The translations under genes and the position numbers were made by a program. A model generated the notes under the pieces. The model had not been told where the DNA came from and did no database searches. It saw only the letters and a program-made list of their open reading frames with translations. 64,000 nt of DNA from Clavelina lepadiformis (taxonomy: Eukaryota; Chordata; Ascidiacea; Aplousobranchia; Clavelinidae): positions 1,798,001 to 1,862,000 of the forward strand of contig NC_135244.1 in NCBI RefSeq assembly GCF_947623445.1, given 5' to 3'. Shown here piece after piece: positions 28,153-53,520 of the stretch (position 1 is the stretch's first letter; every line of letters starts with the position of its first letter).

Positions 28153-30285
28153 TGTTTACAGTTATATAATACTTCAGTTATCGATGCCACCTAATGAGAG
28201 ACTAAACAATAGTTTAATTTCGTTCTTAGGTCTCGTCCGTTCAAGTCAAATAAAATTCTTTAACCACTCTGTAGAAGAATATTCTCATCAAAACTTCGCT
28301 CAGATGCATATTGTATGAACTTTCGCTCCAAATTGTTGGTACAATCTTAAACGGAACTTTCATGACATGTTCGTAGCTTTTGCTAATCTGGTGACCCCAT
28401 ACACGAAAGAGTAAAGTGCTCGTCATTTCAATCAGGTCAGAAACTTAATCAAATGAGAGAGTTACTGCATGTTAAAATGTTCCGCCTACGTCATTTTTGT
28501 CGGAGTGGCGAGCTGCTATAAGAAGAACTTTTGATTTGGCCTTTTTCTCGAGAAAGATGAATGCTTGCCCGGTAGATAGAAACAACTGTAGCTTACTAAG
28601 TTCATGAAAAGTTTTTACCAAGAATCGTTAACTCAGCTATCGATATTTACCCATTGATGACAAAACATTGCTATAAATTTTCAGTTGGTTTCAAAACAGT
28701 TGGTGTCCCCAGCACATGCACATAACTGCTTCCAGTGTAAACTGTTTTTCAGTCTACAAATGTTTAAAACATTAATGGTTCGAATTTGATCCTGACTCTT
28801 CAAGGTTTTGACACCCGTTTCAATCCACTAATTAGTCGTAGTCTACATGTAGACCAATTTTCCCTGCAACCTTCGATTTCAGCGCATCAAAGGGTCTAAA
28901 AATTATCAAAGTTCCTCGTTGTTTTGGTCCTGAACCGCACGTTCTCTCGCCGTCTTTGCTAAATGTTATCAGAGTCTTAGACGCGTTTACGAAGTTTGAA
29001 TTAGGAAGAGTTGACAAAAGTTCGCCGACTATTTGAATCTGACTCAACAACGTTTTACAAGGATGTTCGGCCCGGTTTTTAGGAACGAGCAAATGAAACT
29101 AACACTTTCGGAAATTTTTTTTTGCCAAACCACCATTCAGTTCGAACAAACGAAAAAAATTAGTCAATACGTCCACACTTTCTAACGATTACTTACCAGA
29201 CAACGAAGGTACCGTGTTTTCACCCGACGTTTGTAGCCTGGTGATGTTCTGACATCGTTTCGAGTTGATTAATTACGTTAATCATTTATCGGATATGCTA
29301 AAGGCGCGACGCGGACAACGACGGTTGAATGTTGGTTTAAGCAACGACACAGTAAACTTGATTGGGGGGGAACACGATGACGTGTTTGAATTTTAACAGA
29401 CCCGCTTCGACCTCAAATGTGAACCAAGCAGACAGTGCTAATAAAAGATATCTTATCGCTTGCATAAGAAGAATCAATGCTGTCGTGCCGTCATTAATCA
29501 AGTTTGTTATAAGCAGTAGAAAGACTTCATCGGTAATACTACCAAAAAAGCTTTGAAAAAGTTCCCGTATCATATTGTTGAATATGACTTAATACGACGT
29601 ATTGTAACCTTCAAAGTACTAATGTTACACGTCCAATAAAATGTATTTACCAGCCCTATACTTTGACTGGATATTAGCAAACAAAATTTGACGCTAATGT
29701 GTTGGCTAGCTATAAAGCGTTTGTTTTGCCTTGTGATGAACAACATGCGATGGCATTAAATCAGAAAATTAACTTAGTCCAATAGTGATTCAAGTAAATC
29801 TATAAGGCTAATTTTCTTAAAGTTTTTGTTGTTAAAATTATTGCTTCCTGGTCCTGGAAAATGCTTCCCAATTGCATTATGCCTGTTGTTTATTACGAAA
29901 TTAACTAACTGTAACTACTAACTCTGCACTACTATCAATCAAACCGTCAATCTATTTCACGGCCTTGTACTGTAGGTTTCACAAATGTAGGATGATCTTC
30001 TCTTAACTGTGTTACAGTTTCAGGTCTTGCCAGACACGCCCGTTCCTCGAATCTTTTCTGAAATATGACATCATATACAAAGATGGTATAAAAAAAGGCG
30101 GCAAACATGTTTGCCATCAACTGAAGTTAAAAATTAACCCCATTGTAAATAGCCTGAACCCACGCAACGTGCTTGTACTTAAAAAGCGTCTCCAGTTTAT
30201 CTCTTACACGCTTGCTATATTGGCAAACAGACTGAGTTTCTCCTCACGCGCTGTGCTCATTAAATGTGTGGGAACAACCTTAACA
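28153..30285. other. Region between the folate-receptor-like gene and the large transposon
   Basis: This contains the promoter side of the folate-receptor-like gene, a weak candidate for a small secreted protein on the minus strand (28832-29197, listed separately) and a G run at 29365-29371. Other open frames (29337-29573 and the overlapping opposite frame) are mutually exclusive shadows with no motif. Confidence 0.5.
28832..29197 (-). CDS. Possible exons of a small unrecognised protein
   Basis: Two minus-strand open segments join in phase. A short segment ending at 29197 before a consensus donor (GTAAGT) is followed by 29098-28832, preceded by an acceptor-like TTAG and ending in TAA. The second exon encodes about 88 residues, with the cysteine contexts EHPCKTLL and DGERTCGSG. 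The pattern of a hydrophobic strand, then K-D-G-x-x-x-C, faintly recalls a chemokine fold, but the usual cysteine pair is not visible. The upstream exon with the initiator Met was not found. This is weak evidence. Confidence 0.2.
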
Positions 30286-30826
30286 ACGGTAGCCTGTAAA
30301 GGCCACAACAATTATAATTTGGGTTCCGCAAAATATTTATGATCACCACAAAAATATTTCACGTTAGCGCAAAATATTTATGATCACCACAAAATATATA
30401 TTTTTCTCAGCAAAATATTTTAGAAATTCACAATATATATTTTGTCTCCCTCTAAAATTATTTTGTGCTTTCAAATTATTTTGTGCCTTGAAAAAATATT
30501 GCGACTTCGAAATATTTTGCGAAGTCGAAATATATTTCGCTGTGAAACTTCCACTACCGCAACAAATATAAATTCGCCGCACAATATTTTAGAATCGCCG
30601 CACAATATTTTAGAATCGCCGCACAATATTTTAGAATCTCATCGCAACATTTCAAAATGTGTGCTTACCGCATGGTAGGCGTAGTTGATGAGGTCTTCGG
30701 GAAAGGAATAAGGTTACCGGTCACAGCCACAAATAGTGAGAGATAGTAAGCTTTTGCAAGCCTTAACAAGCTTAGGTCTAGGCTACATTGTAAGGTCTTT
30801 TGCAAGTTCAGTATGCTAACAAACTT
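30286..30826 (+). repeat. Left inverted terminal repeat, 541 bp
   Basis: This matches the reverse complement of 39119-39659 at all but three positions. It is rich in AAATATTT-type words. It holds three tandem 21-bp units (core CGCACAATATTTTAGAAT) at 30576-30638 and a hairpin with CGACTTCG (30502-30509) against CGAAGTCG (30520-30527). The iterated units and hairpin are candidates for transposase binding. Confidence 0.93.
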
Positions 30827-31632
30827 GTAAAGAAAATGTTGAAGGCTTTTGTCTTGATTACTATTAGGTATATAGGCCAAAGCTGGGTGGAACATTATAA
30901 AAAGTTACCTGGAACAGGACCAAACGCTATAGACACGTTTCAACCAAAAGTTAAAAATATTGTAGCCTTCCCAAATTAATAAGGGTGTAGTATACAACCT
31001 TGCAGTTGACGACATAGTTTGAGTAGTTGGGTTTCATTTTACAAAGGCATCATGTGGCTGTGCACATATATACTAAACCCACATAATATATGATTGTCAC
31101 TTTTTTTAAGTGCAGTTGTGTAATTTCTGTCACCAATTCTCCAAAATAGCTGTGTGCTCAGCTTCCCTTTCCCAGCTTCTTCTTATATCTCTTCGACACG
31201 ATTGAGTATTTTTATCAAGTTTTTTGAACATGTTTTGTTAAATATTCTTGCAAATGTGACATCAGCAAACATCCTTAAAATAGCAGTGGGCTATACTGGG
31301 GTGATTTTGACTTTTTTCAAGTAACACAACAGAACTGGAGTTTAAAAGGTGCCTATGGACATACCTAGGAACGTGCAAAAAAATTTTTTTGATTTTGTTC
31401 AAATTCCGGATGGAGCCCGGACTTTATATGAAAAATTCAAGATGGCCGCCATACAAATTGACGAATCTGCAATAAATTTACTTCCAGTCAAGCTTTTGGG
31501 CTGATTTTGGTGTCAAAAGAAGAAGAAAATTGAGCCTGTTACTTTAAAACAGCAACAAAAAGCCCAGTATGCTTGAAAGTTCCCTAAAACATTGAAACTA
31601 TTATATTTTGGTCATTATTTTTCATAGTTTTT
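30827..31632. other. Transposon interior, left side, no gene seen
   Basis: This stretch between the left inverted repeat and the broken third frame contains poly-A/T tracts and no supported coding sequence. It could hold the 3' untranslated region of the minus-strand frame. Confidence 0.5.
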
Positions 31633-32415
31633 TCATTTTTGTTGGTGCAACTTGAGATTACTGGTCGCATCCAAGAATAATGATGACAATTTCAACACTA
31701 TATACAAATAACTTGTTACCGGTATATGAAATTCACATAAAATGTCATGAAATACACTAGAGATTTGAGAAACATTTATACACTTTAGTAACGACACAAT
31801 GGTCGTCACACCTTGGAACACCCATTCAGTCTCTACTGTGACAGGGGCGATTTGAACAGGAATAACATCCTGAATGCCATCTCTTTTTGGTCTCCTCCAC
31901 ATGGTATTGTTGTTATCGTTAACCCGCTGGTATTGGTCACATTGTACAGTGCCATCATTGTTTAAATGGCAGACCCTTGCCAAAAACTACTGACGTTGAT
32001 TGTTTTCTCCGTCCCACACCACAGCCACATTCGTTCCTATAGGGTATTCTTCATGGAGTTCAGGAATTGCTGCCGCAATACACATTTTCACTGATTGATC
32101 TGTGTCACCAGAGGAAGCTGCAGCAGCAGAGGTTAAGATGGCATATACCTCATCTTCTGTTGGGAAGATGGTCCCAACATCCTCATCCTCAGTTCCAAGA
32201 ATCACAGCTAGGTTCACCAGCATGGTATCTACATTCAAGCTGTTTACTTTGTAGAGGCTAGGATTTGCCTGGCTGTCGTGTGGATGAATCATCCCTTGGT
32301 ACTGGATCTCCATGCGGACGATTTTTCAGCGTGGATGATGATGCTGTTGGCAGAGCTCGGAGCTCTTCTACTTTTGTAATTGGGCCCCCATGTCCCTTAC
32401 ATTGATCCACCAGGT
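31633..32415 (-). pseudogene. Broken third reading frame inside the transposon
   Basis: On the minus strand an open frame from ATG at 32313 runs to an in-frame TAG at 31987-31989, then continues in the same frame for over 100 codons to 31633. Just upstream (about 32415-32327) a different frame reads as coding, with HLVDQCKGHGGPITKVEEL; it falls into register with the ATG frame through a one-base shift in or near the A run at 32322-32326. After the stop come an acidic and aromatic stretch and WRRPKRDGIQDVIPVQIAP. The whole looks like one ancestral protein of 250 or more residues broken by a nonsense change (perhaps TGG to TAG) and a frameshift. I do not recognise the family. The V-A-V-V-W-D segment and the basic/aromatic C terminus could form a small beta-barrel reader, which is inference. 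It may be a third transposon gene or a remnant of a nested element. Confidence 0.5.
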
Positions 32416-33243
32416 GGTTATATCCTTAGTTATAAAACAGGATTGTACTTGCGTATAATTTGTAGCCAGTATAAGCTATTTAGTCCAGTGGTTATGAAAT
32501 TGGAGTGCACGTAAGGTTCTTAAGGTGGCACGAAAAATTCTCTTTGAGCTATGACGACGACAGCTGGATTTTTTTCACTGGATGGTTTCGCTACTGGGTT
32601 GATTATTTCACAACCAAGTTCAATTGCTGTCGGTTGGCAATGGTTTGTTTTCCAAATTGCAGTCCAATGATGAAAGTTACACGCACATAACTTGTTGTTT
32701 TGTTTTATTTTGCAATAGGATAGAGACACAAGTTTTTTGGCACCATTTCTAAGAGTTTAAGAACCCCTAATTTCGTATTTTTGACTTGAACTATTTAAAG
32801 ATGACCTAAATATGAAGAACTATGTTAACTTTCCACGTTATTTCACAAATACTATTATTGCTATCATGCATGTTTTAAGCTCTCAAAGTTTGACACTTTT
32901 TCCTGCTCATTAAATGTTAGTGACCATTGTGTTTTATTGTGCTATAACTGTAATAGTTAGCATCGTAACTATGGCACAGCACAACTATTGGCGAAAAATA
33001 AACAATGCAATTGTAGCGATAAGTCCAGCTGCTACACAGCAGTAATTACAATGATACATCACAATAATTATGATGAAGTAGATGTTTGTTTGTGTATTTA
33101 GTGACGTTACCCGTTTGTTCATTATTTAACTATAGTTACACTATAATCGTCAGTTTACTTATATAAAAAAGTGCTCATAGTCAGTTTCACTTGTTGACAA
33201 ATTGTCAGATTCCAGTACATTAGAATATTTAATGATCTGCACA
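32416..33243. other. Transposon interior before the HECT gene
   Basis: No supported gene. This is probably the promoter and 5' untranslated region of the plus-strand HECT gene. The short frames here (32505, 32520) lack motifs. Confidence 0.45.
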
Positions 33244-36200
33244 ATGTATTGCACAAACTGTGAAATAGTACTCTCTTCAACACATTTATTTTGCGGCTTT
33301 TGTGGGCAAGGTAAGTTCAGTTTAATCTTAGATACATTATACCATGTGACAGGTCTATGCAATACATGGAATAAGTATAAAGTTTTTTGTAACATATTAC
33401 TTATGATAAACAGAATTATTGATTGATTGGATGATTCAATTAAACTGTAAGCTGTGAATCATATTACCATAAAAAGGTTTCTGAACGCATGTTTGATTGT
33501 CACTATTAAAGTAAAAGATGCCAGTCAAATTGGCTCGTTCAGATAATTGGAAACTAAGGGTATAATTGCAACCAAAATTTTCCTTAGCCAGGAATCTTCC
33601 CGCCTTAACGGCTAGTCACTCAGCCGGTTTTGCCTTGTTAGCGTTTAATGGCATTTTATTTCATAAAAACATCCACCTTACTCTAAAACCAAAACGTAAC
33701 TACCGACAACCGTCGCCCAGCCGAGCACAGCACTACACCAAACAAATTCCACGCGATAAAGGAATCAATGTGGAATGTAAAACACGATACTAATTAGGCC
33801 TTTGGGGTAACTACGTCAGACGTCACAAGAAATTTGATAAAAACAGGTGTACAAGAACAAGTAATAGAACATAAACAAGTAAAATATGGCAGACAGTGAA
33901 CATGCATGAAAACAACACAATGCAAAGAAAAGACGGTGTATAATGTGGTGTCTACAAAACAGGTGCATAAAAATAATCCCGTGACATAATGCTTTATTTT
34001 AACATCAGTCATCTGGTAATGATTCAAAGTTAATAAATTAGTGACATTTTTGTATATCAATTAATTTAATACATATGTAATTATACATTTTTGACAGGTA
34101 AGGTTTTTGGCAGGTTTGAACAAATGCTGGGGAAATTTACTTAATTTAATTTACATTTTGTTAATTTGAGAAACGCTAAAGATAAACACCTTACCAATTT
34201 TTGAAGAATGTGGGATTTACTTGCGCAGAACATTTGCAATCTACCAGTTTAAGATACGGTATTGATTAGCCCTGTTGCAAAGTTTAGAACTAAAAAATGT
34301 TGCTGTGCATGTTTCTGGTTTTGTTTCAGTTATGGCTTTTTTTAGAGAAACCTCATTCCAGTATTGAGACACAGAACTTCTGTGATGAGACTAGTTCAAA
34401 GGAAAACAGAAGTAACTGCCATGACAACTTGATGGACAACAAATCAAATGGTTTGAAAGTTTAAAGTTATTTAATTGTGTGTAATTATTTTACATTAGAT
34501 TTCTAATTGGGTATAAGTTGATAGCGAAATCGGGTGGAAGTTACAGACAGTCTATAGTGCAGTGGTTCCCAAACTTCATCTACTCGCGTACCATTTTTTT
34601 GGTTTATGCAGCGTTCTTGTACCACCTACATTGCAGGACTATAAAAACTAACTTCAAGGATTTATTACCTAGTAATAAATGACGTTCTATTTCGTCACAA
34701 AGAAACGCTTGTTTCATGATCCAATGTGTCAATACCTTAAGGAATTAGTATTCAGTAGGGAATAAAGCATGAAATTTGCTCATACTCTACCTAATTTATG
34801 TGAATTAAAATATTGCCGACCATAATAAAAGATCATTTGCGATCCGTTTGGTGTAAACTTGATAAGTTGCTGGCGTACCACAAGTGGTACGTGTACCATA
34901 GTTTGGGAACCACTGCTATAGTGGTATTGTAACGATTTGTTAGAGGTTAAAAGCACTTCATCTTCAAGAAAATGTAGCCCTTTACATATGTTTTGTTACA
35001 GTGCTTACCAGTGCAAATTTTTTTCTTTTTTGCAGTTTTGTCTATTTCTATTTGAAATAACTTACATATGCAGCATCTTTTTGGGACAATGAGAAATTGT
35101 TTATCTGGTCATAATGCTAATTGATGCAACATATAACTGAAGAGTTTATTAAAAAAAAACTTTGAACAGCAAAATATACAAAATTGTTAAGCAAGTGTTT
35201 TAAGGCGCCATTTATGCTTGCAAAAAGGCCGAATTTCTTTGTTTATTTTTTTATAAAGCCAAATTACTAAAATGCAACAAATCAAAGTTCCGTATGATAG
35301 CATGATAGTAATAAATACTAATTTATATTGACAGATACACATTCTTTGAAGCGAAAAAGTGATGTCATGTCATTCGGACAATACAAAGCTGTGAAGGGAT
35401 CTCAATGGAAAGAAAGGGTAACAAAAAAGTCAAAACCAAATGAAGTAGGAGTTCAAATAGGAATGCTGGAAAGAGGTGGAAAAGATTTTGAATTAAAGCC
35501 TATTAGAAACCAAACAATTTTACTAAACATTGGCAAAACAGAATCTGTTGACTCAATTTTGGAAAAAGCAGTTAAAAAATACTTACAATTTTATCCAAAA
35601 AGTCATGATGATGGGGCAAGTTATTATCTTGCATTCAGAGATGGTCGTATTATTGATCTATTGCCGGGAACTGATGAACCATTTACCATAATTAAGTACA
35701 AAGAAAACATTGGAAAAGATTACAGTAGAATTTTCCTGTATCTTGTTAAAGAAGAAAAAGAAGATGCAGCAGAACATCAGGAAGATGACTTGCTTCCCGA
35801 TTTTCCCTTGACCACACTTTTTAGTGACCCACATAATTTTATTGATTGCTTTAGCATCGATGAACTTCAAAAGACTGCTAATAAAGAATGTGACAGTTCA
35901 CAAAAGAATGAGTCTCAAATTAAAAAATATGAAAACATAAGTGAAGTCCTGTCTGATTTGAACAAAAACATTGATGATGCAGAACAACTGTACATTATTG
36001 TGAGAAGAAGTGCACCTGTTGCGAGATACCTTGCCCTTTGGCAAAGGGAGGTGAACACTAAAGGTTCGGCAAATAAAAGAGTGGTTGTTAAATTTCAAGG
36101 TGAAAATGGTATCGATTCAGGTGCAATGGCAAAAGAATTCTTCGCCATTGTAGTTCGCTTAATTCGTGAACATTTTTGTCCTGATGGTAGTCCAGTTGAT

Positions 36201-37100
36201 TCCATGCTTTATGTGCAGAATGGTTATTTTAAAGCATGCGGTGAAATAATTGCTGCAAGTTTAGTGCAAGGTGGGCCCGCTCCATTTTGTTTTCACTCCA
36301 ATGTGTTCAAAATGTTAACAGCAATAAACTCTATTGACATTAGAAAGCTTGATCTTCACATTCACTTCACAGAATCCGAAAAGCAACTTATACAACGTAT
36401 TTCAGATGATCCGTCAAATCCATCTTATAGTGACACTATTCTAGAACATGGGTACACTGGTTTAGTGTCTGCTGATCATACTACTGACATAACTCGCACA
36501 CTCATGGTCAGCATCACTAACAGGCGGTTGTGTTATCTTAAAGAATTTTTATCTGGATTGGAATTGTTTGGAATATTTGAAGCATTACAAAGGAATCCAT
36601 TGCTTTTTGAACCTCTTTTTATCACATCGTCTGAGCGTGCTGTTGATGCAAATTATGTTGCAAGTCTGTTAATTCCCAATCACTCTGATGAAAATTCCTC
36701 GAAAAGAATTGTGGAAGAAAAAATAATGGATAACTTTGTGGATTTTTTAATGCATTTAGAGGACAATAAGGTAAATGTAACTGGACATGAAATCTTGGCT
36801 AACGACGAGAATGATTGTCATTTAATTTCATGTACTCCTCCTGACTTGACACCTGCAGGTGTGTTGGGTTGGCTAACAGGCCAGAAACACAGGCCTATAT
36901 TTGGGAACGACCTTCAAATTTCGGTGCAGTTCGATCACTACTGTTTGGAAAATAATCCAAAACACAGTATTTGCTACCCTGTAGTTGGAGCATGCGGCAG
37001 GGTTGTTACACTACCAGCAAAGCACATGGAGAAAGAAAACGATTTTAGGTCTATCTTTTTAACGGCAATATGTAATGCTCAAGCATTTGGACTGCATTAA
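33244..37100 (+). CDS. Transposon-borne HECT-type E3 ubiquitin ligase with N-terminal zinc ribbon, three exons
   Basis: Exons: 33244-33310, 34346-34450, 35335-37100, giving about 645 residues. An in-frame ATG at 33232 would add four residues. Phase decides the second exon border: the earlier AG at 34328 gives a rapid stop, the one at 34344 stays open. Exon 1 encodes a zinc ribbon (CTNC, ten residues, CGFC). The middle is charged. The HECT domain spans about 280-645: N lobe with GENGIDSGAMAKEFF, C lobe with the thioester cysteine at about 611 in GACGRVVTLP, ending AQAFGL. The catalytic cysteine, the following LP and the terminal FGL are all kept, so activity is plausible. HECT ligases take ubiquitin from an E2 onto this cysteine and pass it to a substrate; the closest remembered relatives are G2E3-like proteins. 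Substrate is unknown. Intron 1 contains an LTR-like repeat and intron 2 a hAT miniature element. AATAAA at 37469-37474 may end the transcript. Confidence 0.85.
33555..34000. repeat. LTR-like dispersed repeat, copy 1 (in HECT intron 1)
   Basis: It shares many words in order with 48020-48475: 'ccaggaatcttcccgc', 'taacggctagtca', 'caaattccacgc', 'ggggtaac' and 'gacgtcacaaga'. On the minus strand both copies start near TGACGT and end near GTTGCAA/GTTACAA. That is suggestive of a solo LTR, but no internal genes are present. Diverged. Confidence 0.5.
34560..34915. mobile_element. hAT miniature element with 8-bp target duplication, nested in HECT intron 2
   Basis: Terminal inverted repeats are CAGTGGTTCCCAAACT and AGTTTGGGAACCACTG, the widespread hAT end type. 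The perfect 8-bp duplication CTATAGTG lies at 34552-34559 and 34916-34923. Length 356 bp, no coding capacity. It inserted after the larger transposon was assembled. Confidence 0.93.
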
Positions 37101-37468
37101 AATTTTATATTTTACATTAGTTTAGTTGTTGAACCTATTTCACTTGCCTTCAATGTGTAATGACCACTGTTTAATGTTTATAAACAAAGCTTGCCAAACT
37201 GAGTTTTTCCTGTAATTAGTAATTTTTTGTGTGTTTAGCAGTATTTATGTTGCATGCTTGTTGTGGTACAGTAGATATATTTCTGTGAGATTTTCAGTAT
37301 TCTTTTCAAGTGTAATGTTTCTGTGAGCTACAGTTGTATTTCTTCAAGTGTATCTGCTAAAATTTCGATACATAGTTTTTCAGTGTAATAGAATCGTGCT
37401 TATGATGAATGCAATACAAAAGTAATACAAAACACGACATTTATGTTGATAGACTTAAAATGATAGGC

Positions 37469-37474
37469 AATAAA
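37469..37474 (+). terminator. Candidate polyadenylation signal for the HECT gene
   Basis: AATAAA about 370 bases after the HECT stop and 40 bases before the convergent integrase stop. Confidence 0.4.
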
Positions 37475-37513
37475 CTTTACATTACTTGCTCACACAGAAA
37501 TAAATAGTTCCGT

Positions 37514-38956
37514 TTATCGGTCTCTGGCTACATTCATAAGCATTTTATACAGATCTAAGGCTTCAGTGCAACAAGATGGCACTCCTTGTCCAAGTTCAGA
37601 TGTAGCATAATCAAAATATTCTTGATAGTCTTCAGTTTCAGTTGGTTGTGATATTTCAGCCAATACCAAACTAATGTTGTGTGGTGCAACGTTTTTTAAT
37701 AAGCCAGAAATTCCTCCATATCTTTCTGGCATGGAATATAGTAAATCTGGCCGTCCTGCAATTACATTATGTCGAGATTTTCTTATTCGGTGAGTATTCC
37801 AGTGGTCCTTGAAAAAATCTAAGTCATTTTGAATTAAACATGAAAAGCAATACCACAAGCATTCTTTGCTGAGTGTTTGGGAGAAATCCACAATACCTCG
37901 AAACTCAAGGTCACTAAAAAAGTTGCGCCACCAACAGGCACGAAACCTGGAGAATATTGACCACCAGCTTTCTATCCGCTGATTTCGGGGTGATGGTACA
38001 TAACGATGCGAGTTAATGTTATCTCGAAAAAAGCACTGCGCTGCTGCCAACAATCCATTTTCTGTACCCAAATCTGATACTACTTCAATCGGACAGCCTT
38101 GGAAGTGAGTGACAGCTTTAATATACATATTAGCGACAACATGTGGACATTTGTTTGATCGTGTAACATTAAGCCACAGCACTTTTCGACTAAATCCATC
38201 AATTGCACCATGTATAGAAAATCCGAATGGTTTCAGCTTGTCGTAACCATCTGTGTGCCATGCATAATTTGGCCCAGGGTTGTGATACTCTCTTCGCCTT
38301 AAACGGTGAGCTCTTCGAGCCTCGCACCCTTTCGGATCAATATTACGTAGTACATCAGCTACATACAACCTTGGTACTCTTAAACCTTCCATTTGTAATG
38401 TGTGCCAAACTGACCGATATCCACCAAAAGAAGAGGGTCCATCTAACAACTCCTCGATACGTTTTTCTGCCTGAAATAAAACGGTGATGTCTTTTTTCCA
38501 GCCACATTTTCTTCGCAGTCCAATTTTGTGCAATCGTCTCTTTAAAGTTCTCATACTGATTGCGTAGTTATGACGACTGTGTAGCAATTGTAAAATTTCT
38601 CCATACTCATATCCTGAATGGAAATATTCAGATATTATTTGATCTTGATCCAAAGTAGTAGCTGCAAAACATAAAAACAACATGTGGACTTTTGAGACAT
38701 GACTTGGCACGTTGTATGATATATTTTTTACTAAATAATAATTCGTTATTAATAATAATACACAGACACACAGTCGATTTAGGTAAAACATTTCTTGTTG
38801 GTGTAAAAAAGAAAACAAAAAATATGTTAGTCTACAGCCAAATTTTCATTAAAATATTTATATCTTCACTTGAAAGGTACGCTACTCACCGTGACCACAG
38901 TGTGAACATATCACAAAAATGTCAGGTATTTCATTATGGCACTCAACACAATTCAT
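37514..38956 (-). CDS. Integrase-core DDE transposase with N-terminal zinc ribbon, two exons
   Basis: Exons on the minus strand: 38956-38890 (67 nt) and 38661-37514, joined in phase 1 across a 228-bp intron with GTGAGT and TTTTGCAG borders; about 404 residues. Exon 1 encodes MNCVECHNEIPDIFVICSHC, a C-x2-C-x10-C-x2-C zinc ribbon. It is followed by a helix-turn-helix-like basic region (SMRTLKRRLHKIGLRRK). The integrase core follows with Asp in HTDGYDKL, Asp in VSDLGTENG, then 33 residues to Glu in NQRIESWW. All three acidic residues of the DDE triad are present and the frame is open, so this may be an active transposase. A single longer open frame from 38818 exists but begins in what I take to be the intron. 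Its 3' end faces that of the HECT gene, 413 bp away. Confidence 0.87.
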
Positions 38957-39118
38957 TGCAATGAAGATCAGTTTTCACACTAAGAAGGTACACTTCATTT
39001 TATAAAACAAATTTCTGAAAAAGTCAGTTAAAATTTATGCTGTTATGAACAGCTTTGGTCTTCGAGACAAAAAAAACAACATAGCCTATAGGCCTAACCT
39101 ATACAGCCAAGCCCTAGA

Positions 39119-39659
39119 AAGTTTGTTAGCATACTGAACTTGCAAAAGACCTTACAATGTAGCCTAGACCTAAGCTTGTTAAGGCTTGCAAAAGCTTACT
39201 ATCTCTCACTATTTGTGGCTGTGACCGGTAACCTTATTCCTTTCCCGAAGACCTCATCAACTACGCCTACCATGCGGTAAGCACACATTTTGAAATGTTG
39301 CGATGAGATTCTAAAATATTGTGCGGCGATTCTAAAATATTGTGCGGCGATTCTAAAATATTGTGCGGCGAATTTATATTTGTTGCGGTAGTGGAAGTTT
39401 CACAGCGAAATATATTTCGACTTCGCAAAATATTTCGAAGTCGCAATATTTTTTCAAGGCACAAAATAATTTGAAAGCACAAAATAATTTTAGAGGGAGA
39501 CAAAATATATATTGTAAATTTCTAAAATATTTTGCTGAGAAAAATATATATTTTGTGGTGATCATAAATATTTTGTGCTAACGTGAAATATTTTTGTGGT
39601 GATCATAAATTTTTTGCGGAACCCAAATTATAATTGTTGTGGCCTTTACAGGCTACCGT
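39119..39659 (-). repeat. Right inverted terminal repeat, 541 bp
   Basis: Reverse complement of 30286-30826 with three substitutions. The three 21-bp iterons fall at about 39307-39369. The integrase start codon lies about 160 bp inside this arm, so the arm probably includes or abuts the transposase promoter. Confidence 0.93.
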
Positions 39660-40106
39660 AGAATTGGGATCAGTACGGCACAATTTAAAGCAACTACAAA
39701 ATGTACGACTTAGTTTCGTATCGGTGAAACATGTTGGCAACCTTCGTTTTAAAACTTATAACTGATAAATTACAATTTTTTATCCCGCTGTTATACGTTG
39801 GGCTGTTTTGAATTTGCTAGCTTGACCAGATTTTAGTGAGAATAATCTCTCCCAAAGCTCTCTCTTAGGCGAGTTAAGTGTACGGCAATCAAACAAGTAC
39901 AGCCAAATGTAGCCTATAAGATAGAGAGCGTGCTGTCGACTATATGAGGCACTGCTTGTTTTACTTCACAATCGAACCATTGTCGCTTGTTTTAAGTGAG
40001 CACAGATTACAACAATCAACTAAAAAGTCAACAAAATACGACAGAAAATATATTTATGATTTCATGATCAATTTTTCGCTTTTTTACTTTGTTTCGCATC
40101 GAACAT
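39660..40106. other. Short gap between the transposon and the VMAT gene 3' end
   Basis: About 450 bp, AT-rich, probably the 3' untranslated region and terminator of the minus-strand transporter gene. No minus-strand AATAAA was found here. Confidence 0.5.
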
Positions 40107-43100
40107 CTAATCGCTATGGACCATGCTTCCGTTCTTTGCTTCGTGGAAGACGTCGTCGCCGTTTTCACAATCACTGTTCTTAGCGTGATACAGGATCGGC
40201 TGAAACAAAAAACATTGTCTAAATATAAGTCAAAAACAAGTTGTTGACGAAGCAAAATGCAACAACACTGGGTGCAGATGAGCTTAATCAATAGTCGGTA
40301 GTTTCCATCATTGATAAATTGTCACATAAAGGGTTTTTCCACAAAACAATTTGTTTTGTTGGACACGAACAAATACCCTGGTTGCATGGCTGGCGATAAA
40401 ACCCGATATCTTCTTAACATAACATAACATGCAGATAAAATTTTTATATCTTTCGCAAAGGAAATTGTTAACAAGCAATAAAACAGGATGCAGATATGTG
40501 AGCTTTACGATTTCTATAAATTGTTTCTTTTGCAAAGTTGATTGTACTGTATATTACACTATACCGTCCCAGACGTCATGGGTTTTGATTAGCCACCGCT
40601 AGATGTCGCAACATACTCACAATTTTTTCCTCAGATTGTGACGTCGGCTTCCTGAGAAAGAAAACCAATGGAGTGAAAAGAAAGGTCACCATGGCAACGA
40701 TCCACATCAGCCATTCGAATCCGATTGTGCTGACAACCAGGCCGGCACATAGTGGACCTAAATATCGATGAAAAGATGCGTTTAAGAAAGCGGTTACTTC
40801 ATCGGCAAATTGCATCGCCTAAAATAAAGGTAATATAGCACCAGACTATTTTTTTTTTAAATCACTTGCAGTAAGGTCACATTGTATTACGCTGCTTTTA
40901 ATTAGTTTTTTAAACCACCACAACATTTGAATTGCTCTGTGATTGCAACTCGCTTTGCAATAGCAAGGGCACTAACTTTTCCCTTCAACGTAGCTTTTCG
41001 TTTAACTCACCCACTATAAACGCAACACAGAACGCGACGTCCGCGATCGCATATACGCTCCCATAAACCGGTTTGTGTCTTTGGTCGACCAAGGTCGCCA
41101 TCACTGGGAACATGCTGGTGTCCACCAAACCAACCGCTGAACCAATCACCAAGCCAGGAACAATTAGTTCCGGTAACCTGGGAAGTTTATTAATCTTTGC
41201 ATAAAAACATTCTGACCTGTTAAAGATTTGAGTTTTTCTCTAATTCATGGCCTTGTTCTTATTAATATTAACTAATAATCATACTAAGTAATAACTTAAT
41301 GGTGATAATAATTAATTAATCATTGTTAGTAATTAAGCTTGCATGTTGCGTTACTGGATGAAACTTTTCAAAAAAATGCCCGGACACGTGACCTATGTTT
41401 AGTTAGCAGTTTGTTTCAGCACTAACTTTGTTGCAAAGGGCAGCCCTACACATCCAGCTGTGATGAAATAAAGTCCGATGACGCAAATCAACCAACGAGG
41501 GTAGGATTGGCACAACAGCGCCACCACGTAGGTCATCAGCATGTAGGAGACACTTTCGGGCAGAAAGGCGACACCTAAGGATGACAGATATTCCAATGAG
41601 CATCGATTTCTATGGACGCATCTGCTTGCAACTGCCTTAAAACACTTTCATTGTTCGTTGATTCAAAAACGTATATGACGTAAATCTATTTTCAGTAAAA
41701 TAAGATCCAACGCTGCATAAAATGAGTGACGTTGCCGTTATGAATGTTGTGGCGCCACTTGACTTGTGACCTGATAACGACTGAGACAAAAGCCTCGATA
41801 ATTGTTAGATATCAAAGCAATTGGAGTAGGAGAAACCTCTTCGGATGGGTCGATAAAAATTAAGTCTTCTCATACAGCTTTTATCACACATGACGCCGGG
41901 AATGTCTATGCATAGGAAACCAGTACAAGGCGTTGTGCCAAAATCCAGCCGCAAAATCGATACAATGCTGTCATGAAGGATTTGCTAAGGTTAATGTTAA
42001 CATTAAAATTAAGGTTTGATAAGTTAATAATAGAAGAAAACGCTTTTCTATTCTTAACAACTTTGTCAGCGTGTATTCTGTTTGAACAAAAACAGAAGTC
42101 GTCCTGGTGAGTTATAATATACTGATGGCTGATGCCGCAAAAGTTGAAATTGCTAATTCCTTTCCGAGCAAAAGAAAACTAAAATTTAAAGAAAATAACT
42201 TGCAACATCACTTTTTAGTGCACACAGTCTAATTAACAGCACTTGTTCCTATTGAAATATAAACCCATGAGCACACGACCAAACGCGTTCACGTCCCTAC
42301 TTGCAGGTATGACATGGTTGTATGTATCTTGCTGCTGTCTTTATTTATATCCTAAACTACCCACCCAACGCCCATTTCGGCGCGCACATGTTGATCATCA
42401 TCCAGATTGGTTGGCCCGTCTCCAACACTCCAATGCACATGTTACCCAGCATTATCGCGCAGGCGCAGATCACTATGTACGGATCACGTAGTAAGGTAGC
42501 AAGGGAAGTCCCTTCTTCACCCTATAAAGACATTGACGTCATGGCTCACAAAATGGCTTGGAAATAATTGATAAGATTCCGCAATAAGTTTTAACTTATC
42601 ATAAAAAATCAAAAATGTTTTAAACTTACGGGCTGCCGTCGTTCGACGTTCAGTCGATATATGGAGAGCTGGGTGACTGCCAGAAACAAAGCCATTATGG
42701 CCAGTACGAGGAAAACCCACTCTTTCCCAGCAAGCTCATATACCACGCTTCCGAAAACAGGACCAACTGAAAACAATGGACTAGTTTTGGGTATTACCCT
42801 AAGCAAAAACTACATCATTTGTTTATTTTATGTCGATGTTGCGCAGAAGCAGAATAGGAGGAGTATAATTTTTCTTATACTTAAAATTCCCATCGCCAGT
42901 CCGCCAAGAGCGATCCCTAAAGCTCTTCCGCGTTTTTCTTCATCGCTGTAACGATCCGCCAACATTCCCATCCCTGCGGTTGAGGCACAGGCGGATCCAA
43001 TTCCCTGGATGGCCCGAGCCACCAACAACATCGAATAGTTCTTCCCAAAGGCAAACACTGAGGAAGAAGGTTATTGTTTCAACAAAAATTGCTTATTCGG

Positions 43101-44080
43101 AGTCACAAGGCTAATTGTTACGCGACAAATGAATTACAAACAAATTATTTTATGTTTTTAACGCAGCCTTAGTACTGTACTTACACACAGCCGAGAAACA
43201 CATTATGACGTAACCAGTAAACATTGGGACATCGAAACCAATGTAGTCAGATATAGGACCGACCGCGGCATTGGCGACAATTTGAACAATCGGCTTCGAT
43301 GCAAATAGAATCCCGATGTACAAGTTCTCGTCTGACAGGAAAGCCAGCTCTTGATTCATGTTACAATCACTGTCTGGTTCAATCGTAACGTTTGCTGTTG
43401 ATGACGTCGTTGACGGAATAGGGGGAGTTTCGGTCGTGTTCGGGTCGTGTCGAAGGGACGACATGTTGGAAGGTGCCTCCGCGAGATGTTGTCTAAAGAA
43501 GTATTCGGGTAGAACCGGAACTGGAAGAAATAAATTTCGAAGTTTAAGCAAAGATTCAAAGGGAAATACAAAATTTAACGCTACGCTAACACAATTTATT
43601 GTTGTGTTCTCTGTCCATGCATTTTCGCTCTTATCGGGGTAGTTAAAGATAACCCCCGAATTTGGTGGTAAAGTCAGGCATCTTCAAACGTTACTGTTTA
43701 CACTGGATGTATGAAGCGAGCTAAAATATGTATGTACCGGCTATACTGTACTTATAAAAAATCACTCCAACACGTTCTGTTAGTATACAGTAGTTTAGCT
43801 GGATTACCGTATCATGAAGATAGTATTATGAGACAGAATTTTAAGTCATACATCATATCCGTTAAAGCCCTAGCTGTACTAATGAAGAGTGCAATGGTTC
43901 TGCACAAATTAATCTTAACTGATGAAAACTTTTTTAGTTGGGAATTACCCTAATTAACAACCAAGACTTACCAACCGCAGTTAGAAGCATGTTATCGAGC
44001 ATTAGTGTGGCGTAAACAATCGCCATTGCCATTCCGTTGGACGCACGGAGGCGTTCCAAGCGTTCCTTCACAAAACCCAT
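40107..44080 (-). CDS. VMAT: Vesicular monoamine transporter (SLC18 family), nine exons
   Basis: This is a proton antiporter that loads monoamines into synaptic or secretory vesicles. Exons on the minus strand: 44080-43972, 43520-43185, 43057-42881, 42766-42630, 42521-42365, 41574-41427, 41177-41011, 40757-40621, 40199-40107. All phases agree and give about 486 residues, close to VMAT length (about 515). TM1 has [12 protein letters not shown], with the conserved Asp. A long luminal loop with N-glycosylation sequons (NMS, NTT, NVT) follows. The motifs [74 protein letters not shown] and [13 protein letters not shown] match the SLC18 pattern. 'LDNMLLT' favours VMAT over the acetylcholine transporter. 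The tail starts EEKI and is acidic. The last splice joins EEKI to an acidic 30-residue exon and is well supported by phase. An unspliced reading would stop 17 codons later. Confidence 0.93.
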
Positions 44081-49246: not shown

Positions 49247-52200
49247 ATGAAAAGTATCGTCGTAGGCTTGTGTATGTTAATGCTGGTTAGTAGTCAAAGG
49301 CCACAAAGACAGCTGGATTCCTGTAAGCAAAACTTCGCATACTTTATTAAGTATTTAAAATGGCCGTTATAACACATGCTTATGAAGTGATATTTTTGGT
49401 TTCATCGCTTGCTCGAATTCAATTTTAGAAAAAACATTTATACCCTGTATCAACATATGATTTTTGTGCTATTTTTCCAAACATGTTAATACGACTAGCT
49501 TTCCATGAAGCCCATGCCTAAAACCGTTTTTGTTCAGCTTATTGCCATTACCACGACTTCTTGACGACCTGTCCCGATGATGAATTTAATTGCAATTGCG
49601 AGAAAGAAAACTCATTTGAACTTCCACCAGCGTGTATCTCCCGTACGTGGGTATGCGACGGCCAGAACGACTGTCCAGATGGGTCAGACGAATGGGGCTG
49701 CATTTGTCAGCCAGGAGAATTCCAGTGTGGTTGTGATGAAGCGGGAGGGACGTGTCCCCATCTATACCAGTGCATAGGGTCGGACAAGGTCTGTGACGGG
49801 AAACCCGATTGCGCGAGTCTCCGAGACGAATACGACGTCCAGTGCCCGAACCAAACCGGAGAAACTTGCACCAATGGGGGTTATATAGACTCCGCTTTTA
49901 GGTGCAACGGAATAGAAATATGCGGAGACGGAAGTGACGAAAGAGATTGTCCTCCCGCTTGTGGCCCCTTCGAGAATCGATGTGATTGTTTCAGTGAAGA
50001 TGGGAATAATTGCAAACTAAACCCGTGCTATGCGATTTACGGTAAGTATTGTTTAGCGACCATGGAAGATGGATCGTTTGATTTTATTGAGGTAAAAATC
50101 ACTGCATTTCACTTCGGGAAAGTAAAGTGTGTAAAAGTACGTTAAAATAACCTGGACGCAAACGCATTGACACGACTACAAATAGTTATTTATCTGCACC
50201 TATAATGACGACATTGTTTCACGAAACAGAACGATGCGATGGAGTCGCTAACTGCGAAGACGGAACAGATGAACGGGATTGTGACTGTGCAGCTAACAAC
50301 CTGACGCATTGCGATTGTCACCAGATCGGCAATTACACTTGCGAGACAGTCGGCGTAGTTTGTTACAATTTCAGTCGAGGTAATTCCCCCATGTTTGTTA
50401 GTTGCTTGCTCGCCTTTTGAGGCTTTCCTGTCCTTATCCTGTTTGACAAGTTGCATCCTACTACTAATGACATATTCACTTAAAATAATACAATAGCCGA
50501 CGTCATTCATGCATTAAACGTAATTACACCAAATTTTTGTTGATGACGTCAGATCGGTGCGACGGAAATTTGGATTGCGTTGACTCTTCTGACGAGTTCA
50601 ACTGCTCGTGCCCTGAAGAAAGAGCGACACCATGCGACTGTAATCAACCCGGAAACTACACCTGCAGAAAAGAGGGCGCCGAGAAAATCTGCTATTCACA
50701 AAGCGCAGGTATTTATGGTTGTGTAAGAAAAGCAAATCGGTGAAATGTTGAATTCATATTTTAACATTGAACTAATTTTGAGTAATCAAGGAATAGCGCA
50801 GTGACACTGACACGCACACTGACCGGTTTGTAATAACATTTAATTGTGGCGTAGCCAGATTATCAGATTCTTCCACTTAAGAAAAATGTGGCCTTAAAAA
50901 TGGGTCTGAGACTTTGTCATGCATCAACGCATTTACAATAAGCATCGAAATGTTCTTCACAGAAACCTGCGACCAATACTCGGAGTGCACCGACGGTACA
51001 GATGAGAAGGACTGTGTCTGCCCTCAAGATCATTTTACCTGCAACTGCTTCACAGAAACCGACCCCTCTTGCACGAGGAATGTTGGCTGCATCCCAATAA
51101 ATCGCGTCAACGACGGGATGTTTGATTGTCCGGACAAGGAAGACGAAGATTTCGTGAAATCGCTGCACATCGATCAGTGTGATGGGGTCCGGATCGAGCT
51201 CTTTCGATTCGACGACGCGGCCTTCTGCTCCCCCGACTTCTGCAACATCGCCACATGCAGCAGGGCCCTCGCGTTTGGGTGCGATCTCCCGGATTGCGTC
51301 ACGTATGACGTGCTTTGTACGTCATCGGGTGTAGGTAGCAAGGAAATTACAGACAGGGGTCAAAATTGCACAAAGTTTTTCCAATGTCAAGATCAAAGTT
51401 TGTTACTGAGTCATAGATTTTGCAACGGAAAAGTGGAATGCGGCGACGGAAGTGACGAAAGAATCGACCGCCCCGGCTTTAAATGTTCGTCGAACGTATC
51501 GCCCAACGTCTGTGTTCTTCCCCAGTGGAATCTCTACGACGACGTGGCCCAGTGCCAGGACCAATCCGACCTCTGTTTCGGGGAGGATGGTTCCTTCCAC
51601 TGCTTCCAGTGCCTCGACAAGCGTCTCATCGTGTCCGCGTCACAGGTCTGTGATGACGTCATTGATTGCTACGATCTGTCGGACGAGTGTCTGTGCGCGA
51701 ATACCGACCTGACAATCTGTTCCACTGTGTTGGCACAAGTCGATTCCTCCACTCTCCAGTGCCGAAAAAATGAATCGGCGTGTTTCACCGGTATTACGTC
51801 ATTGCAGCTTTCTGACGCAATATGCAATGACGTCAGTCAGTGCGTGGGGAACATCGACGAGAGCAACTGCGCTTTAGGCGAGCCTTCGACCCTGTGTGAG
51901 ACCAAATTCGGAAAAGTTTTTGCGAAACATTGCGACGGAAGACCGGAATGCATGGACTTCAGCGACGAGTGCGTGGGATGTCCGAACCCTCCTGCCTTCT
52001 GTAACGACAGTTGCCACAGCTTTTACTCACTCGGCGATCGATATTGTGATGGGTACGTCGACCAAGCCTGGTTTTATATCAACGACTCTAACTGTCCCCG
52101 CGGGTTCGACGAAGAAAATTGTCCGCAGAGATTCCGGTGCCCTTCAAAGGACCAAATCAGTATAGATTCTATGCAGGTGTGCGACGGTGTTCGAGATTGC

Positions 52201-53520
52201 GACGACGGCACCGACGAGGATGAGGAGAGGTGTCCAACTCGACATTACTGCGATACGGAGGTGGGCGGAAAAATTTCCATTCCGCAGAAATTCGTGCTTG
52301 ACGGAAAACGCGATTGCAGGGACGGATCTGATGAATTCCGTCCAGGAATTTTTTCCTCGCGCTATAACCTCATTGGCAACATCGGCCTCTACGTTTGGTT
52401 TTGGATCGTTGCCATTGTGACGTTAAGCGGAAACATTTACGTCATAATTTTGACAGCGCTTCAATTACGTAAGAATGAAATGAACCACGGCTTGAAATGC
52501 AACCACGTGTTGATTTTACATCTCGCACTCTCCGATTTCCTCATGGGCGTCTACCTCATAATCGTCGTCTCGAAAACGGCCGAGTTTTCAGGAGTTTACT
52601 CAGCTTACGATTATTCGTGGAGGAGTGGAGCTCTTTGCGCAGCTGCTGGGAGTCTTAGCTTGATTTCAAGTCAGACTTCTGTCTTCATGATGGCCATCCT
52701 TACGGCCTTTCGTCTCTTCTCTCTCCTCCGACCGTTTCACGCCCAGCAGGCTTCGACCAGGGCGTGGAAGATTGTCGCCGTGTGCGCTTGGGTCGTCTCT
52801 CTAATGCTCGTCATCTTATCGAACACTCTGCGCTACTTCAAACCGATCGTCCTCTTTCCTACGCTCTTCTCCGACGTTGATCACGTCTCCGATGAATACG
52901 TCATCGATTTTGCTTGCCGTGTGGCAGGCCTCACTAATTCAACGGTTCCGGCTTCCGGGAATAGGTGGGAATATGCAAATCGGGTTTTGGCCGAACAATC
53001 GTCACAGTTACCGACGCCGGGCGACATCGGCTACTACGGCACCACGAGTGTGTGCTTGCCGAGCTTCTACGTCACAGCTAAAGACAGATACTCGGGTTTT
53101 TCTATGACGATCATCACAATTGATTTGTTGGCTTTCCTCTTTGTACTTGCTGGTTACGCGACGATCTGGAGACGGACAACTAAGCGACCGACCACCCAAG
53201 ACCCGGCTTTGAACCAGATCCGCAAGACACAGAACCGCATCGCGCGTCTCATCGTGACCGATTTCTGCTGCTGGATGCCGATCTGCATCTTGGTTTATCT
53301 CAACTTCGGTGGGGTGAAGGTCTCTCCTGAAGCTGACATCATAACGGCGGGCTTGCTCCTCCCCATAAATAGCGCGCTGAATCCCATCCTCTACTCCCCA
53401 TTCGTCGAGAGTTTTTTCGAAACCTTGACGAGAAGAGTGAAGGAGCGAAGCAGACGCACCAAGTCCGTCACCACCGACAACATCTCGATGCACACCGCCA
53501 CCACACCTGGTGGCCAATGA
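49247..53520 (+). CDS. Receptor with about 15 LDLa modules and a rhodopsin-type seven-helix domain, five exons
   Basis: Exons: 49247-49322, 49538-50041, 50230-50379, 50553-50708, 50963-53520; phases agree, about 1147 residues. The first exon is a signal peptide (MKSIVVGLCMLMLVSS). Residues about 30-755 are cysteine-rich, with about 15 LDL-receptor class A modules recognised by the calcium-box pattern C-D-x4-D-C-x-D-x-S/T-D-E (for example VCDGQNDCPDGSDEWGC and RCDGVANCEDGTDERDC). Some modules are degenerate. Helices run from about 765 to 1110: GNIYVIILTALQL in TM1, LALSDFLMGVYL in TM2, NSALNPILY in TM7. The TM2 and TM7 text is close to the LGR/relaxin-receptor group. The usual E/DRY after TM3 reads AFRLF, so the Arg is kept but the acid is not. 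No leucine-rich repeats lie between the LDLa array and TM1, unlike RXFP1/2 and snail GRL101. Ligand unknown. Inner modules are split by phase-1 introns, as expected for LDLa exons. Confidence 0.9.

Follow-up and report, generated by a model that had tools for sequence, protein, structure and literature searches.

A candidate IS3EU-type transposon pairing a HECT ligase gene with an integrase-type transposase gene in the ascidian Clavelina lepadiformis

Genes and ends of the element

The window analyzed here is a 64,000-nucleotide stretch of the Clavelina lepadiformis genome (contig NC_135244.1, positions 1,798,001 to 1,862,000), located on C5 of the searched 209-Mb assembly. It contains a transposon copy of 9,376 bp (30285..39660) in which two convergent genes, one for a HECT-type E3 ubiquitin ligase and one for an integrase-type DDE transposase, lie between long terminal inverted repeats. 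An earlier note, made from the sequence letters alone, had described this pairing. The 541-nt inverted arms it reported are present with 99% complementarity (30286-30826 and 39119-39659), and both of its spliced genes yield products nearly identical to public Clavelina proteins. Its count of four introns is revised to three, all GT-AG, as the HECT gene has three exons and the integrase gene two.

The HECT gene is encoded on the forward strand and includes an open reading frame (ORF) of 592 amino acids (35322-37100, open). Spliced against the public protein P0001, its exons (33232..33310, 34346..34450, and 35335..37100) encode 649 residues, 648 of which are identical; the sole difference is at residue 11 (G in P0001, E in the window). 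Exon 1 carries a CxxC..CxxC zinc ribbon, and exon 3 encodes an N-terminal mixed alpha/beta domain followed by a full HECT domain, as supported by the ORF and by domain and structure comparison. The two-lobed HECT fold is present. The thioester cysteine that had been noticed in GACGRVVTLP is residue 615, in the C-lobe, and is kept in 53 of the 54 relatives that reach that column (83 aligned). A ubiquitin-binding-like motif occurs in 41 of the 83 relatives and is absent from the window protein. The Pfam HECT match of the element protein falls below the cut-off (E 0.0045), and the window HECT, too divergent for that model, is missing from the 68 matches of a Pfam HECT search of its own genome. 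Searched as a profile against the PDB, the HECT alignment recovered E6AP and, weakly, RSP5. Structural alignments to the cellular ligases HUWE1, UBR5, Smurf, and E6AP give 12-18% identity, and the element protein, unlike these, carries a zinc ribbon and a mixed alpha/beta domain of its own at the N-terminus. Two BFVD matches at E <= 0.001, a Fadolivirus HECT E3 ligase and an uncharacterized Megavirus protein, are taken to reflect a common fold only; a profile scan of viral contigs gave 45 pattern matches and no confirmed relative. Judged by its sequence, the element HECT is likely an active ligase.

The integrase gene is encoded on the reverse strand, with an ORF of 443 amino acids (37514-38845, open). 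Its two exons (38890..38956 and 37514..38661) splice to a 404-residue protein that matches public protein P0057 at 403 positions and differs at residue 242. As in the HECT protein, a CxxC..CxxC zinc ribbon opens the sequence on a separate first exon; exon 2 encodes the DDE transposase, identified by Pfam rva_4 (E 2.5e-30 and, in a second scan, 1.6e-30), triad conservation, and fold. The D, D, E core described earlier is intact (D160, D219, E253) and kept in relatives. Pfam lists no HHCC zinc model for this protein and lists the CxxC..CxxC ribbon instead. The modeled structure matches IS21 IstA, Tn7-like TnsB, and retroviral integrases, a likeness confined to the core, since only model residues of about 149-343 were well tested by these matches; we know of no ligase partner for any of the three. 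The integrase alignment, run as a profile against the PDB, returned nothing at E 0.01, and among viral contigs the corresponding scan gave 68 pattern matches with no confirmed relative.

The element ends were set by other copies at one base beyond the inverted arms on each side. The left terminal inverted repeat (30285..30826, forward) includes subterminal tandem repeats with units of 18 and 20-21 bp, and the right lies at 39119..39660 on the reverse strand. Other copies start TACGGTAGCC and end CTACCGTA. TACGG..CCGTA ends are found in 14 of 15 paired copies (the right ends of L030 and L031 were judged by eye); the window copy begins AACGG, with the first T of the TA..TA termini read as A.

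Copies in the Clavelina genome

The left arm matches 43 rows genome-wide, representing about 41 arms, two of which take up two rows each; many occur as +/- pairs. Our sample comprised 15 paired copies (the one in the window plus 14 more, leaving out the other C1 arm matches) together with three stretches carrying one arm or part of one. The window copy matches L035 at 98.8% over all but the first base of the element. Aligning the copies, as the earlier note had advised, fixed the ends given above and revealed exact 6-bp target duplications in nine of the 15 (eight by script, L030 by eye): AAAAAC (L029), CCATCG (L032), CCATGG (L033), GCTTTC (L034), TAATAG (L035), CAACCA (L036), TATATG (L039), CATTTA (L037/L038), and CTTACA (L030). 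No exact 6-bp duplication was found among these 15 at the window copy, L031, L041, L042, L043, or L044. The same gene order and ends thus recur at several chromosomal sites with differing flanks and exact target duplications, so that the proposal of mis-joined arms or of a chance neighborhood of two unrelated genes, favored by the lack of a duplication at the window copy and contradicted by L032 and L035 and by the many paired arms, is practically untenable.

Two of these copies have complex termini. In L032 (C2:7237113-7246698), a second transposon end lies 117 bp beyond the main left arm. The duplication was scored at this outer end and the inner left end has none, as if the left terminus were partly duplicated or nested. 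L030 sits in the right inverted repeat of L031 (C5:19000984-19015947).

Copies differ in gene content. All five exons are full length and gap-free in the window, L032, and L035. A common internal deletion in L029, L030, and L039 removes most of HECT and spares the integrase frame. Both genes are broken in L031, L034, and L036 and incomplete in L037/L038; L033 and L041-L044 are short derivatives. The latter four form a cluster of 2.3-2.6 kb derivatives (C1:1.4-3.6 Mb) in which the flanks of L041 and L042 are inverted, suggestive of the spread of a larger palindromic repeat in that region.

A genome search with HECT returned 25 rows, which we grouped by hand into 16 places. Integrase sequence also occurs at 13 of these in the stretches examined; coverage of L057 and L064 was limited to 1.5 kb of flank in either direction, and the last place, C4:24870695, lies outside the examined set. 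HECT recurs within copies at different sites, in keeping with the earlier view of the ligase as part of the element, and we regard it as a gene of the element with high confidence. The earlier note had named as contrary evidence copies without the HECT gene alongside a single-copy host HECT gene elsewhere. Copies without an intact HECT do exist, but they are internally deleted forms of this transposon; the places examined (three of the 16 partly covered or not covered) showed no stand-alone HECT gene belonging to its family. At L064 (C4:21790864), the HECT end is 66-67% identical and element segments are 80-84% identical, and this locus probably represents an older sister subfamily.

Classification and relatives

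Polintons (Mavericks), which encode a protein-primed DNA polymerase, an ATPase, and capsid proteins, were considered and rejected: beyond HECT and integrase, no frame in the element exceeds 120 amino acids, too short for a polymerase (four ORFs were Pfam-scanned). Ginger1 and Ginger2 were likewise set aside, as their target duplications are 4 bp and 4 to 5 bp, respectively (PMC10045372), and those of the element are 6 bp. The hallmarks of IS3EU/GingerRoot are TA..TA termini, 6-bp target duplications, and an integrase-type DDE transposase without HHCC, all of which the element has in common with this superfamily. Based on its ends, target size, and integrase, the element almost certainly belongs to IS3EU/GingerRoot, an outcome the earlier note had allowed for in cautioning that an existing superfamily might include it. 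It is potentially autonomous.

Fungal IS3EU ends, TAYGG..CCRTA (PMC12730594), accommodate the TACGG..CCGTA of the Clavelina element. According to that paper, TET/JBP and alpha-kinase genes are found in fungal members of IS3EU, and its authors consider that TET/JBP enzymes likely help transposons escape methylation; the superfamily therefore acquires helper enzymes. A similar arrangement is found in the TET-positive IS3EU elements of rust fungi, where the transposase gene and a second enzyme gene are also oppositely oriented (PMC12730594). That second enzyme is an alpha-kinase in the rust-fungal elements and a HECT ligase in Clavelina. What sets this element apart from IS3EU/GingerRoot as described is its HECT gene, together with the zinc ribbon that opens the transposase. 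Neither HECT nor ubiquitin is mentioned in the main text of PMC10045372 or PMC12730594, and no HECT-bearing DNA transposon turned up in our literature searches, which weakly support its absence from print; one apparent match, PMC4284660, was discarded because the matching word is a personal name. As far as these searches go, the HECT partner and the zinc ribbon in both proteins are new for IS3EU.

Named HECT relatives come from the soft coral Dendronephthya, Xenia, Oculina, Stylophora, and the fish Dallia (30% identity across half of the query); named integrase relatives, among the best 120 of 1840, also come from Dendronephthya and from Paramuricea. We compared the longest contigs of 55 of the 56 HECT relatives with those of these 120 integrases and found four HECT/integrase pairs of equal size (192101, 14204, 31883, and 6344), relative to a mean of 0.36 in a jitter control, or 0.003 when that control is limited to contigs longer than 10 kb. 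A fifth pair, 35566, was spotted by eye, and the 6344 pair taken alone could be due to chance. This equality of contig size suggests that HECT and integrase may reside on the same environmental contigs, and the transposase-ligase pair looks like a lasting partnership.

Possible roles of the ligase

To our knowledge, few transposons carry their own ubiquitin machinery. The whole is best explained, with odds we judge slightly better than even, as a two-gene IS3EU transposon whose HECT ligase acts at the transposase complex or on a host factor there. Under this model, the helical N-terminal region of the transposase, perhaps together with the zinc ribbon, would contact the subterminal repeats, and the enzyme would then pair the ends and transpose. 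The ligase, with its own N-terminal ribbon, would be recruited to this complex or chromatin site, where it would ubiquitinate either the transposase itself or a bound host factor. The preferred substrate would be the transposase-DNA complex after strand transfer; clearing it would open the joint to repair and would also keep the dose of transposase in check. Copies with internal deletions would be mobilized in trans.

Action on the transposase or its complex is a tentative choice, preferred because the zinc ribbon is common to both proteins; a host target has an equal claim. More speculative still, and on present evidence improbable, is the proposal that an animal IS3EU lineage is defined by a transposase-HECT pair with a common ribbon, in which the ligase would serve as the element's own disassembly factor by ubiquitinating transposase in the strand-transfer complex. 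ClpX acting on MuA provides an analogy for such a factor. For the ribbon itself, Zn_Ribbon_1 scores E 0.0074 in P0001 and E 0.0011 in P0057, and among hand-picked annotated or transcript sources the ribbon start is found in six of nine HECT proteins and three of five integrases.

Several observations weigh against this account as a whole. Zn_Ribbon_1 is under the Pfam cut-off in all five proteins scanned; the CxxC..CxxC start occurs in only 6 of 83 HECT and 3 of 120 integrase relatives (none in shuffles); and the integrase model is poor at the ribbon, with a predicted local distance difference test score (pLDDT) under 50 for residues 1-24. Many of these relatives derive from metagenomes, in which a short first exon could have been overlooked. 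The Dendronephthya HECT (P0035, P0182) and integrase (P0151) relatives are on different-sized contigs. Within Clavelina, co-occurrence was counted from HECT places, and integrases without HECT elsewhere in the genome are outside that count. The copy in the window lacks a target duplication, and its first base is altered. The three complete HECT copies differ pairwise at only 0 to 6 amino-acid-changing and 1 to 5 silent codons, too alike for a test of selection. Finally, L029, L030, and L039, which have lost the HECT core and kept the integrase, have their own target duplications; HECT is therefore not needed in cis. That derivatives without an intact HECT moved shows that it either acts in trans or is dispensable.

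Acting in trans also suits the strongest alternative, a counter-defense or host-modifying ligase that would clear from transposon chromatin a host protein of silencing or repair, leaving the transposase untouched. The TET/JBP and alpha-kinase genes of fungal IS3EU, the former with its likely part in escape from methylation (PMC12730594, as above), point the same way, as do the extra N-terminal domains and the ubiquitin-binding-like motif of many relatives. The ribbon in common with the transposase points instead to a shared site or partner, and we consider this alternative a serious minority prospect. If HECT were dispensable, it might be a captured host passenger, useless to the element, since several groups of derivatives remained mobile after its loss. 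Retention of the catalytic cysteine, the occurrence of relatives in corals and on metagenome contigs whose lengths suggest an integrase gene as well, and the failure to find a stand-alone HECT gene of the family in the places examined all make a passenger very unlikely.

If conserved, the transposase-ligase pair would offer a direct handle on how eukaryotic integrase-type transpososomes are dismantled or how such elements handle host control. The clear catalytic cysteine and the natural HECT-deleted derivatives make the question testable.

Other features lie outside the core system. Within the element, two adjoining ORFs on the reverse strand (31633..32325) were considered as a third gene and rejected: the upstream half is a separate repeat, and the stretch is absent from L032, whose two genes are complete. 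The upstream ORF (31987-32325, the only one of the pair searched) matches 12 genome places, some with longer frames, and is apparently another repeat nested in some element copies. Beside the element, 40576-43683 (reverse) likely comprises exons of a major-facilitator transporter, presumably resembling vesicular amine transporters; of three pieces scanned with Pfam, one matches MFS_1 (E 9.9e-06, below the cut-off) and two match nothing. Farther along, 49522-53520 (forward) has long frames rich in cysteine repeats like those of the low-density lipoprotein (LDL) receptor, followed by what appears by eye to be a seven-helix receptor-like part.
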